Positions 20,077 to 21,863 of a DNA stretch of 64,000 bases are shown piece after piece (the stretch's first letter is position 1; every line of letters starts with the position of its first letter). The notes beneath the pieces are model-generated. The model searched no databases. It was not told the DNA's origin and saw only the letters and a list, made by a program, of their open reading frames with translations. The translations under genes and the position numbers were made by a program. Where the stretch lies: positions 434,001-498,000 of the forward strand of contig NZ_PVTF01000001.1 of NCBI RefSeq assembly GCF_003002815.1, written 5' to 3'. The DNA is from Umezawaea tangerina (lineage in GTDB: Bacteria; Actinomycetota; Actinomycetes; Mycobacteriales; Pseudonocardiaceae).

Positions 20077-20150
20077 CGGGGTGTGGCGCAGTTTGGTAGC
20101 GTGCTTCGTTCGGGACGAAGAGGTCGCAGGTTCAAATCCTGTCACCCCGA
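20077..20150 (+). tRNA. tRNA-Pro (anticodon CGG)
   Basis: The 74-nt sequence folds as a tRNA. The acceptor stem is CGGGGTG/CACCCCG, the anticodon stem is CTTCG/CGAAG with loop TTCGGGA (anticodon CGG), and the T arm is CAGG-TTCAAAT-CCTG. The discriminator is A and CCA is not encoded. Its 3' part is the attachment site of the adjoining island. Confidence 0.95.
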
Positions 20151-20151
20151 C
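20107..20151 (+). repeat. attL: 45-bp direct repeat, tRNA-Pro copy
   Basis: It runs from within the anticodon stem through the T arm and discriminator, plus one base. It is identical to 21819-21863, and the flanking bases differ on both sides. It keeps the tRNA gene functional after integration. Confidence 0.9.
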
Positions 20152-20162
20152 GGTTGAATACA

Positions 20163-20199
20163 CAGGCCAGGAACCTTTCACGGGTTCCTGGCCTGTTTT
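20163..20199 (+). terminator. Intrinsic terminator after tRNA-Pro
   Basis: A perfect 13-bp stem (CAGGCCAGGAACC at 20163-20175 with its complement at 20183-20195) is followed directly by TTTT. It lies inside the island, so it was probably brought in by the element; the original chromosomal terminator is the one at 21880. Confidence 0.88.
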
Positions 20200-20239
20200 C
20201 GTGTCGTCTACTTGCGGTCCGGAGACCGAGGGGCGCGCG

Positions 20240-20308
20240 ATGGAGGTCAACGACGTGATCCTTGCCGGTGACCGGTACGAGCTGTCGTACGAGCTTCCCG
20301 CCGACTAG
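20240..20308 (+). CDS. Possible 22-aa peptide or gene remnant in the island
   Basis: An ATG preceded by GAGGGG opens a 22-codon frame (MEVNDVILAGDRYELSYELPAD). It is too short to assign and may be the surviving start of a longer gene. Confidence 0.2.
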   Translation: MEVNDVILAGDRYELSYELPAD

Positions 20309-20645
20309 TCCACAGTGGCCTTCGCTGCTCTAGCGGACCTTGTGAGGACTTTCTCTACTTGTTCAAGGCGGCCCCTGCGGGGCCGCTCGGCCGCACTCTG
20401 CTGATCCTGTCCGACAGGGTCTTCACGGCCCCATCCTTGTGCCGCTCGGGCAAGCGGGCGGGGCCCGCCCTGGCGGGCACCACCCACGCCCGGCGACGGG
20501 AGCAGGGCCTAACCCAGCCGGACACGACAGCGGCCGATCAGCCCCACAGGGTCCGCAGACGGAGAAGGACATGTCCTCGCCGGACGGCAGGTCTCCGAGA
20601 TGGTCGAAGCCATCGACAGCTCGCGTTCGGCAGTGGGACCGGGGA

Positions 20646-20782
20646 TCGCGCCATCTCGTCGACCTCCACGAGGGCAACCACACGCGTCAAGGGGGCAGCC
20701 CCAGCGTCCGTGTCCAGTATAGGTGGATGAGCCCCCTTGACCCGCGCGGTTGGGGCGGGGCCAGGTCGACGAGATGGCGCGA
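20646..20782. repeat. Nested inverted repeat in the island (20-bp outer, 11-bp inner)
   Basis: The outer arms (20646-20665 and 20763-20782) are perfect 20-bp complements containing the GTCGAC centre. Inside them, GTCAAGGGGGC and GCCCCCTTGAC form a perfect 11-bp inner pair around a 34-base centre. Such nested symmetry is typical of regulator, replication-initiator or recombinase binding regions. Which one applies here is unknown. No gene is seen between 20309 and 21173. Confidence 0.75.
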
Positions 20783-20983
20783 AACCCCTCGTTGAGGTAA
20801 AGCGTCCCGCACGAGTCAGACCTAAAGGGACTTTAGGGAGCTAGATAACCTTCGCGCCAACCGGGCCGCCTGGTGCGACCAGCGGTCAGCGGAGTTCGGC
20901 AGAGCCGATCTGCCTCGCCGATCGCTCCTTCACTTTGCGCCCTCGACCTGCTTAAGCTGCAAATGCACGCCGAAGACATAGCA

Positions 20984-21016
20984 ACGGGCGACCTACCGTT
21001 AGGCAAGGTCGCCCGT
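20984..21016 (+). terminator. Hairpin in the island, possible terminator
   Basis: An 11-bp perfect stem, ACGGGCGACCT with its complement at 21006-21016, has an 11-base loop. It has no T-run. It lies between the nested repeat and the two small genes. Confidence 0.45.
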
Positions 21017-21106
21017 CGCAACTAAGCCGTCTGGTAGCACAGACAGCTTTCGTTCAGCCAAACCGGGTCTCCGGTAGGCAGTCTGTCTCCTCGTAGCACG
21101 GCCCAT

Positions 21107-21141
21107 CGTGATCGACTCGCTTAGCCAACCTTGCGATCACG
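21107..21141. promoter_or_regulatory. Inverted repeat before the island's small operon
   Basis: CGTGATCG at 21107-21114 and CGATCACG at 21134-21141 are perfect complements separated by 19 bases. They lie 33 bp upstream of the GTG at 21174, so they may be an operator for the two-gene unit. Confidence 0.4.
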
Positions 21142-21173
21142 AACAAATTTCCGCCTAGAAGGAGCCAGCATCA

Positions 21174-21374
21174 GTGACGATAGGTCCCCTCACCCACCGT
21201 CCACCATCCCCAAACCGTGCCTCTCTCGATGAGAGGTCGCCGTCGAGCGCCGAAAAGCACTGCTACGGTCGAAGGCTGACTAGCTCGGCAGATCTGCTTG
21301 GCAGGTCGGACTTGCTCAAGCTTCACACGGGGCGCACCCTGACCTGGGCTTACGTGAACAGCGAGGTCCGGTGA
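21174..21374 (+). CDS. Small island protein (66 aa), unknown function
   Basis: A 66-residue, basic, mostly polar protein. A strong AAGGAG lies 9 bases before the GTG start. Its stop overlaps the next start by 1 bp (TGATG). No domain is recognised. Less GC-rich codons than the flanking chromosome agree with foreign origin. The ribosome binding site and the overlap are the main evidence that it is real. Confidence 0.45.
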   Translation: MTIGPLTHRPPSPNRASLDERSPSSAEKHCYGRRLTSSADLLGRSDLLKLHTGRTLTWAYVNSEVR

Positions 21375-21580
21375 TGTCTCCGTGGATCTGGTTCTTCAGC
21401 GCTTACGCGATCTTCACTCTTACAGTAGCCGGCTATGCCGCACGCGCTGCGGTCTCGTACACAGACGCCAGCCAGCGTGCTGACGCCTATAAGGTGCTCA
21501 AGCTCATCTGGGGTATGGGGACCGGCACAGGGGGTCTCATCGGACTCGTCATCAAAGCACACGAATCCGGGCTGCTGTAG
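21374..21580 (+). CDS. Small island membrane protein (68 aa), unknown function
   Basis: A 68-residue protein with an N-terminal hydrophobic segment (WIWFFSAYAIFTLTVAGYAA), a charged middle (TDASQRADAYKVLKL) and a second hydrophobic segment (GTGTGGLIGLVI). The layout resembles small phage or ICE membrane proteins (holin-like or exclusion proteins), an inference from shape only. GAGGT lies 7 bases upstream of ATG 21374. It overlaps the preceding gene by 1 bp. Confidence 0.55.
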   Translation: MSPWIWFFSAYAIFTLTVAGYAARAAVSYTDASQRADAYKVLKLIWGMGTGTGGLIGLVIKAHESGLL

Positions 21581-21818
21581 AACATCCCTATTGCACGCGG
21601 GACGTGTCGTTGGCTTGCCAGCAGCAGTCGGCAAGCCTGGCATCGTGTCTTGATCAAGCCTGCCTCGGTCAACTGCGGCAGGGTTGCCACGCCAGCAGCA
21701 TCAGCAGTCAGTAGGAAGTCAGCAAACCGGTCGGCATCAGGCGTTACAGGAACCATCTGGCCGACACAAAATGCGACGCCAGAGGCACTCGCCAACACGG
21801 CCCGACAGCAAGCAGCAA

Positions 21819-21863
21819 CGTTCGGGACGAAGAGGTCGCAGGTTCAAATCCTGTCACCCCGAC
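21819..21863 (+). repeat. attR: 45-bp direct repeat, orphan tRNA-Pro 3' copy
   Basis: It is identical to 20107-20151 and is not part of a complete tRNA. It marks the right end of the island and is followed by the presumed original tRNA terminator. Confidence 0.9.

Follow-up and report, generated by a model that had tools for sequence, protein, structure and literature searches.

What is left of a mobile element when a 1.7-kb island in a tRNA gene carries no integrase, and what might the remaining part have done? These questions are raised by a locus of Umezawaea tangerina (Pseudonocardiaceae) within a stretch of 64,000 nucleotides (NZ_PVTF01000001.1, positions 434,001 to 498,000), here called the window. 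The initial annotation, made from the sequence of the window alone, had described an exact 45-bp duplication of the 3' part of a tRNA-Pro(CGG) gene bracketing 1712 bp, with a terminator at each end, two overlapping small genes, several inverted repeats and no integrase, and had offered a deletion scar or a satellite mobilized in trans as explanations. We found that the island is almost certainly the scar of an internal deletion in an actinomycete integrative and conjugative element (AICE). The region that was kept, a motif block (block A) followed by a conserved hairpin element (EL), is somewhat more probably than otherwise, judging from sequence comparisons, the lagging-strand origin region of the AICE. 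Taken together, we consider it likely that the locus is a scar of a RepSA-type AICE that retains a probable lagging-strand origin region.

The island and the genes it has lost

The repeat coordinates bear out the duplication (exact, 45 bp, spacing 1712; Table 1). Just outside each copy of the att core is a hairpin, a perfect 14-bp inverted repeat on the left and a perfect 13-bp inverted repeat on the right, each followed by a short T-rich stretch, in agreement with the two terminators described initially. The G+C content is 62.7% in the island and 71.3% window-wide.

The absence of an integrase from the interior was also upheld. No reading frame in the island encodes one, and five open reading frames (ORFs) compared with Pfam gave a best E of 0.16. 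A tblastn search of the island with 31 AICE reference proteins gave one clear match, and all others were at E 0.007 or worse; RepSA, FtsK and one Prim-Pol query had a best E of 0.025 (RepAM was not among the queries). The hallmarks of an intact AICE are missing, with no integrase match by an att copy and no RepSA, Prim-Pol or FtsK match in the island. The whole island had no match among plasmids and phages, and the best E for four island ORFs against PHROGs was 0.04.

The clear match was to the end of a regulator gene. The frame ending in EGRAMEVNDVILAGDRYELSYELPAD and a stop codon matches the C-terminus, DGRAVEVNDMVMSGDRYELSYEIPAD, of a protein with GntR and UTRA domains (Pfam; locus L066) from an AICE in genome G018 (E 1.2e-12, 47% over 53 amino acids, alignment 20147-20305). 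That AICE also has RepSA and a gene adjoining tRNA-Gly, which was chosen by its position as the integrase reference Int_066. The deletion junction lies to the left of the GntR end and joins the element terminator at attL to the GntR/UTRA gene end.

Near attR is a repeat, GTCAGC(A/G)G(A/G)AAGTCAGC, that we take to be an arm-type site of the integrase; the window copy, at 21707, begins GTCAGT. The repeat is found at both ends of the occupant of the same tRNA in genome G001, at the left end of that in G004 (both described below) and at the right end only in the window, and no left-hand counterpart was found in the island. Because the left repeat is missing and only the end of the GntR gene is kept, the internal deletion appears to have taken the left arm sites together with int, rep and tra, and to have left little of the GntR gene.

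Occupants of the same tRNA site in relatives

In a relative of the same genus (G002) the site is empty. There the tRNA connects the left flank directly to the right flank, and the two stretches that match the window (93% identity across 256 bp and 95% across 103 bp) each overlap the att core. The terminator at this empty site is the one now to the right of the island, so the hairpin at the left end was brought by the element.

A different and also gutted occupant is present at the same tRNA in Umezawaea endophytica DSM 103496 (G001). Its order is tRNA, the same element terminator, an arm repeat, a truncated tyrosine integrase (PF00589), the 3' part of an EL, a ParA-like gene, another arm repeat and, at the right end (L063 8630-8754), second copies of the att core and of the element terminator, which suggest a former tandem element. 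In the more distant G004, an AICE occupies the same tRNA-Pro(CGG). Its parts are a tRNA-att (6 mismatches to the window core), an arm repeat, pieces of an integrase that is frameshifted in the assembly, a RepSA gene, an FtsK gene and two ELs; no right att could be located as far as the contig end.

The att duplication in the window is therefore at a tRNA that also hosts a fuller AICE (G004) and another remnant (G001), and the broken AICE-type gene, the GntR end, is accompanied by an empty allele in a relative (G002). The initial annotation had called for this comparison, with the view that a 1.7-kb stretch shared by all relatives, with no empty site and no larger element sharing its ends or interior, would speak against an island. 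That outcome did not arise, because an empty site exists and larger elements (in G001, G004 and other AICEs) share the ends or the interior. Together with the gene end at the left junction, these findings support the deletion scar that had been offered as one explanation.

Gene arrangement near this site also differs between the genomes. In G000 and G002 the PBP gene is on the minus strand, to the right of the tRNA; in G001 it is on the plus strand and precedes YqeY on the left (compared over window 18560-24473, L063 2384-6495 and L065 2586-9252), a placement consistent with inversion of the YqeY-phosphoesterase-tRNA block. A copy of the tRNA terminator in inverted orientation is present in G002 (L065 2461-2511).

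EL is a conserved and covarying hairpin element

The inverted repeats noticed initially are present, and what had been missed is that they form a conserved module common to many AICEs. Those at 20641-20787 are not random; they are part of a conserved dispersed element, EL, that consists of a long hairpin (20641-20787) and a 5' hairpin, GTCC-TCGCC-GGAC. Sixteen copies span 227-236 bp. A DNA search found EL in 80 of 297 genomes and 24 of 46 genera of the family; it scored only two candidates per genome, so copies are under-counted. A covariance model (R1), used with strict filters on 394 genomes of the class, gave a match at E<=0.001 in 7. The same family accounts for two of them (the genome of the window and G050), and among the other five only G525 matched the full model at better than 1e-6. 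By these searches, EL appears to be found mainly in Pseudonocardiaceae.

The pairing in EL is supported by covariation. In 58 aligned copies (alignment A2, from which 11 partial copies and one duplicate had been dropped beforehand), 97.2% of 1727 cells were paired and double changes were present in 19 of 30 pairs. None of 500 shuffles was as high on any of five measures, and slid controls were 31-48% paired. The window copy folded 5.8 standard deviations below shuffles as single-stranded DNA (ssDNA) and 5.2 below as RNA. Over the 30 model pairs, there were 17 G-U and 31 A-C changes on the strand as drawn, and 31 and 17 on the complement, compared with 29 and 1 in a baseline of tRNA stems (42 of the 56 distinct tRNAs from the fetched loci fitted the stem scan). 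The two differences from tRNA stems had Fisher p values of 2e-8 and 8e-4, which are optimistic since the sequences are related. Because the pair changes differ from those of tRNA stems on both strands, neither strand of EL looks like a selected RNA, and wobble pairs are not kept on one strand as in a structured RNA.

EL had no Rfam match; at gathering thresholds, Rfam gave only the tRNA and a 6C RNA over the window, and the best match over the island at E up to 5 was MIR5387, with 23 bits (gathering score 69). The EL core, searched against plasmids at E 10, had no match with at least 80% query coverage, the best listed E being 0.7, among 20 of 56 records. Nothing recognizable as EL was found in the accessible text of the open-licence papers searched.

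Six loci (L159, L170, L171, L173, L179 and L320) have two or more ELs, some of them partial, in the same orientation in one stretch. A simple mobile element of the miniature inverted-repeat transposable element (MITE) kind is not favored beside rep, where copies are single or, if two, in the same orientation. Three of the 11 partial ELs dropped from A2 end near the hairpin apex (profile positions 141-160; L063, L159 and L171), and in each of the two same-genus scars at this tRNA the break is in or close to EL. The scars may have broken at a single-strand hairpin.

EL has a fixed orientation to nearby RepSA genes and goes with one group of them

We searched 50 of the 80 EL-positive genomes for RepSA (PF20199). 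The resulting table of EL and RepSA leaves out four rows in which one arm of an EL matched the opposite arm of the same copy, as well as the 13 weakest fragment hits to RepSA, and includes five added G001 copies. There were 83 EL copies in these genomes, with RepSA within 30 kb on the contig for 41 and none for 42. All 40 ELs within 15 kb of RepSA (39 rep hits, at distances of 0.6-12.9 kb) are on the strand opposite rep, and 38 of the 40 are on the same side of it. One EL, 24 kb from RepSA, is on the same strand, beside a lower-score rep. EL is, in other words, conserved stem-loop DNA with a fixed orientation to rep, as looked for in a single-strand origin (sso) of the sti type.

The association is with one group of RepSA genes. 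RepSA hits fell into a high-score group (58 hits of at least 440 bits) and a lower group (324-352 bits), plus weaker or partial hits. An EL was found at first pass for 33 of the 58 high-score hits; 20 of the other 25 were fetched and 5 left out. In this second set of 20 loci, 8 have an EL, again always on the opposite strand (8/8), seven matching over most of the element and one cut by a contig end. This brings EL to 41 of the 53 high-score hits examined. In contrast, 20 lower-group loci (336-352 bits, 369 kb; two of them, L355 and L361, cut by contig ends) had no EL and no block A, with an integrase match nearby in 19 and an FtsK match in all 20. The difference between high-score and lower loci (Fisher p 0.003 for EL and 3e-8 for block A) holds within EL-positive genomes, all picked for having EL.

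Mantel tests on 30 of 35 loci, with host distance taken from the genus label only, gave a correlation of EL with Rep of 0.33 given FtsK and host (p 0.003), and of EL with host of 0.28 given the others (p 0.0002). The correlation of EL with FtsK, given Rep and host, was 0.05 (p 0.25).

Block A is often near EL and shares a motif with Streptomyces plasmids

Upstream of EL on the same strand is block A, TTTCTyTnCTTnnTCAAGGCGG running into a GC hairpin. A block A match of at least 13/18 was present within 450 bp of 43 of 66 ELs, as against 21 of 1320 windows of 450 bp drawn at random from these loci. At a threshold of at least 15/18, the motif was found in 17 of the 20 further high-score RepSA loci, always on the strand opposite rep, including 9 of the 12 that have no EL.

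The motif is also present in rolling-circle plasmids of Streptomyces. It occurs in pIJ101 at 7275 (+) and in pJV1 at 6771 (-), each with 16/18 and with rep on the other strand, and at 15/18 in a Streptomyces RepSA plasmid (L137), immediately downstream of the GntR gene there. A further plasmid, L138, aligns with the pIJ101 stretch (77% over 115 bp), and pIJ101 7255-7400 matches 32 plasmid records, 28 of them from Streptomyces; no gene is listed under it in any of these 28, whose gene tables are incomplete. In the accessible text of published work, the sso of pIJ101 (sti) is placed downstream of spdA2 (PMC4170104), and sti is described as 0.2 kb long with a natural orientation (PMC9761944). Because spdA2 reads from 8377 to 7970 on the minus strand, block A of pIJ101 is downstream of spdA2. 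From this agreement of position, we infer that the non-coding plasmid block that shares the motif is probably the single-strand origin, sti.

EL pairs in Saccharothrix

Saccharothrix genomes have dispersed palindromes of about 380-570 bp (mostly about 510-570) that are two ELs in inverted orientation, with spacers that align between loci. They were found at ten loci (L151, L154, L157, L199, L217, L219, L220, L243, L245 and L253), from Saccharothrix and from G276, which has the same genus label as G230. The predicted neighboring genes are convergent in 4 of 6 loci. At three of the pairs, a scan found no block A, and there was no RepSA match in the approximately 20 kb fetched (within about 10 kb on either side).

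It is possible, if rather doubtful as a whole, that EL represents an undescribed class of ssDNA-acting module that is tied to one RepSA lineage and works next to a block of the sti type. In that case, some ssDNA process would have carried it into the chromosomes of Saccharothrix, where it now forms inverted pairs (mostly about 510-570 bp).

A model for the kept region, and points that weigh against it

The observations can be arranged in a simple model. An AICE of the RepSA (pSAM2-like) kind would have integrated into tRNA-Pro(CGG), and an internal deletion would then have removed the left arm repeat, the integrase, rep, tra and most of the GntR regulator. What would remain is attL with its own terminator, the GntR end, an origin-like region of about 450 bp, a cargo gene, the right arm repeat and attR. 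The origin-like region would have two modules, block A and EL, both on the strand opposite the rep coding strand. Rolling-circle replication would displace the rep-sense strand, on which the hairpins of the block A/EL region could fold, and host enzymes could prime second-strand synthesis at the folded region. In the scar, this origin module would be severed from rep and have no replication to serve. A single-strand-origin role for block A is suggested by analogy, from its match in pIJ101; for EL, such a role is suggested by position, orientation and the link to Rep.

Several results weigh against this reading. For EL, no copy was found for 12 of the 53 high-score RepSA hits examined, and two other lower-score RepSA hits do have one, 1.8 and 2.9 kb away and on the other side. 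A conserved AICE gene order could alone give a fixed orientation by hitch-hiking, an effect that is not separable here from an origin role. The excess of wobble changes on the rep-sense strand (31:17) was not significant (p 0.06), five rolling-circle plasmids had no convincing EL match (best E 0.081), and the chromosomal inverted EL pairs without nearby RepSA are not explained by an origin role. For block A, there was none within 450 bp of 23 of the 66 ELs, including both ELs of the G004 AICE, and none in 3 of the 20 high-score RepSA loci scanned. The motif scan had no match in two (L136 and L138) of the five rolling-circle plasmids. In pIJ101, a gene (7674-7913) lies between spdA2 and block A, and the placement of sti used here comes from a description relative to spdA2. 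BLAST of block A from the window against plasmids was weak, with a best E of 3e-3 and, for pIJ101, E 0.5 (80% over 46 bp). Our confidence in the joint reading is slightly lowered because this direct match is weak.

Alternative explanations

One alternative, which we regard as improbable, is that EL is the double-strand origin, the nicking or binding site of Rep, and not a single-strand origin. EL does go with one RepSA group and was found in none of the 20 lower-score loci, EL distances track Rep distances, and one hairpin arm holds CCCCCTTGA, which resembles pC194-type nick sites. However, EL lies 0.6-12.9 kb from rep, and none was found for 12 of the 53 high-score RepSA hits examined. Furthermore, the adjoining block A shares its motif with pIJ101 and pJV1, which are similar to each other and whose rep we take to belong to another family than RepSA. 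Block A as the double-strand origin, on account of a CTTGA motif on the rep strand, is less likely, as it matches non-coding Streptomyces plasmid DNA.

It is unlikely that EL, possibly together with block A, works as a functional RNA or as an element of 3' untranslated regions, its orientation simply following that of a gene. EL follows a gene on the same strand at several loci (GntR at L066, NUDIX at L058 and DUF397 at L059), and the convergent genes around the inverted pairs would suit such a role. At L067, L072 and L074, on the other hand, the neighboring gene as predicted by a simple gene caller is on the other strand, the pair changes on neither strand resemble those of tRNA stems, and EL goes with one RepSA group.

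The satellite that the initial annotation had considered, a live element keeping its att sites and origin and moved by a resident or incoming AICE, seems quite unlikely. The two att copies are identical, the arm repeat at attR and the origin-like region are intact, and G001 provides a second short occupant of the same site. Against this, the left arm repeat is absent, so that arm sites, if the repeat has that role, do not accompany both att copies. In addition, the GntR piece is a broken gene end, and no second copy of the whole island was found in 3 same-genus genomes searched. Mobilization in trans is unlikely because a search of the genome of the window with the integrase remnant that G001 has at this site gave no match at E<=1e-10.

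Finally, EL is very improbable as a transfer locus (clt) to which the FtsK-like Tra protein binds: it is directional and AICE-borne, as such a locus would be, but clt is described, in the accessible text of PMC4170104, as 8-bp TRS repeats and not a long hairpin, and EL shows no significant correlation with FtsK after control for Rep and host. We retain the reading of the island as an AICE scar with a probable lagging-strand origin region.

Other features of the island and the window

Of the two overlapping small genes described initially, one was supported. The 69-aa membrane protein ORF has matches at E<=0.001 in 18 of 200 genomes of the family, that of the window included. The 66-aa ORF that overlaps it (21174-21374) is not supported as a gene by sequence conservation: outside its own locus, the best match in the 12 loci fetched for the 69-aa ORF, the only ones compared, covered 25 aa at E 0.008. 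An antisense ORF of 102 aa (21487-21798, minus strand) was set aside, as it overlaps the membrane gene. Elsewhere in the window, the 6C RNA match (61554-61628; RF01066, 74.5 bits) is to an RNA that is ordinary in actinomycetes.

Table 1. Features of the tRNA-Pro(CGG) island, in window coordinates.
Feature	Position	Strand	Basis
tRNA-Pro (CGG), 3' part restored by the element	20077..20151	+	ARAGORN; Rfam tRNA
Left att core copy, 45 bp, inside the tRNA	20107..20151	+	exact repeat
Terminator-like hairpin, element-borne; not at the G002 empty site, twice in G001	20162..20196	+	repeat scan and relatives
GntR/UTRA regulator gene end; 26 codons and stop in clear agreement	20228..20308	+	EGRAMEVNDVILAGDRYELSYELPAD compared with DGRAVEVNDMVMSGDRYELSYEIPAD
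Block A: tract TTTCTCTACTTGTTCAAGGCGG overlapping a GC hairpin (20368-20386); candidate sso/sti core	20350..20386	+	motif scan
EL, conserved covarying element of about 230 nt	20566..20797	+	covariation, covariance model
Gene for a small membrane protein of 69 aa (cargo)	21371..21580	+	conservation
Arm-type repeat GTCAGTAGGAAGTCAGC adjoining attR	21707..21723	+	comparison with G001 and G004
Right att core copy (attR)	21819..21863	+	exact repeat
Original tRNA terminator; directly 3' of the tRNA at the G002 empty site	21880..21913	+	repeat scan and G002

Implications and comparison with known systems

Little seems to have been written on the lagging-strand origin of AICEs. The accessible text of an AICE survey (PMC3218068) discusses nicking of the double-strand origin by RepSA, and the term 'sso' occurs nowhere in that text. 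Covariance model R1 and the block A motif together provide candidate lagging-strand origins in many AICEs of Pseudonocardiaceae. EL may in addition help to reveal AICE scars overlooked by surveys that rely on genes, given the 42 of 83 copies without RepSA within 30 kb, although some of these copies have a contig end close by or may be part of elements that use a different rep gene.

The island resembles AICEs of the pSAM2/RepSA type (PF20199) in its integration at a tRNA 3' end with duplication of the att core. RepSA-type relatives (for example L174, L173 and L320) have the order tRNA, int, RepSA and FtsK, with EL, and often GntR, further out; the island differs from them in having no int, rep or tra, and has kept the cis sites and one cargo gene. 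With what we take to be the single-strand origins of Streptomyces rolling-circle plasmids, such as sti of pIJ101, it shares the block A motif (16/18 in pIJ101 and pJV1, in each on the strand opposite rep). Unlike these plasmids, Pseudonocardiaceae AICEs often have block A followed by EL, a second module of about 230 nt. The dispersed and inverted EL pairs of Saccharothrix bring to mind the repetitive extragenic palindromic (REP) sequences and bacterial interspersed mosaic elements (BIMEs), although EL units, at about 230 nt, are far longer than REPs. A further parallel is sso1 of ICEBs1, an integrative and conjugative element of Bacillus subtilis, which the accessible text of PMC4595007 describes as an orientation-specific stem-loop region of about 200 bp that serves second-strand synthesis. 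ICEBs1 belongs to another host group, and the likeness is one of description, between sso1 and a candidate role for EL.

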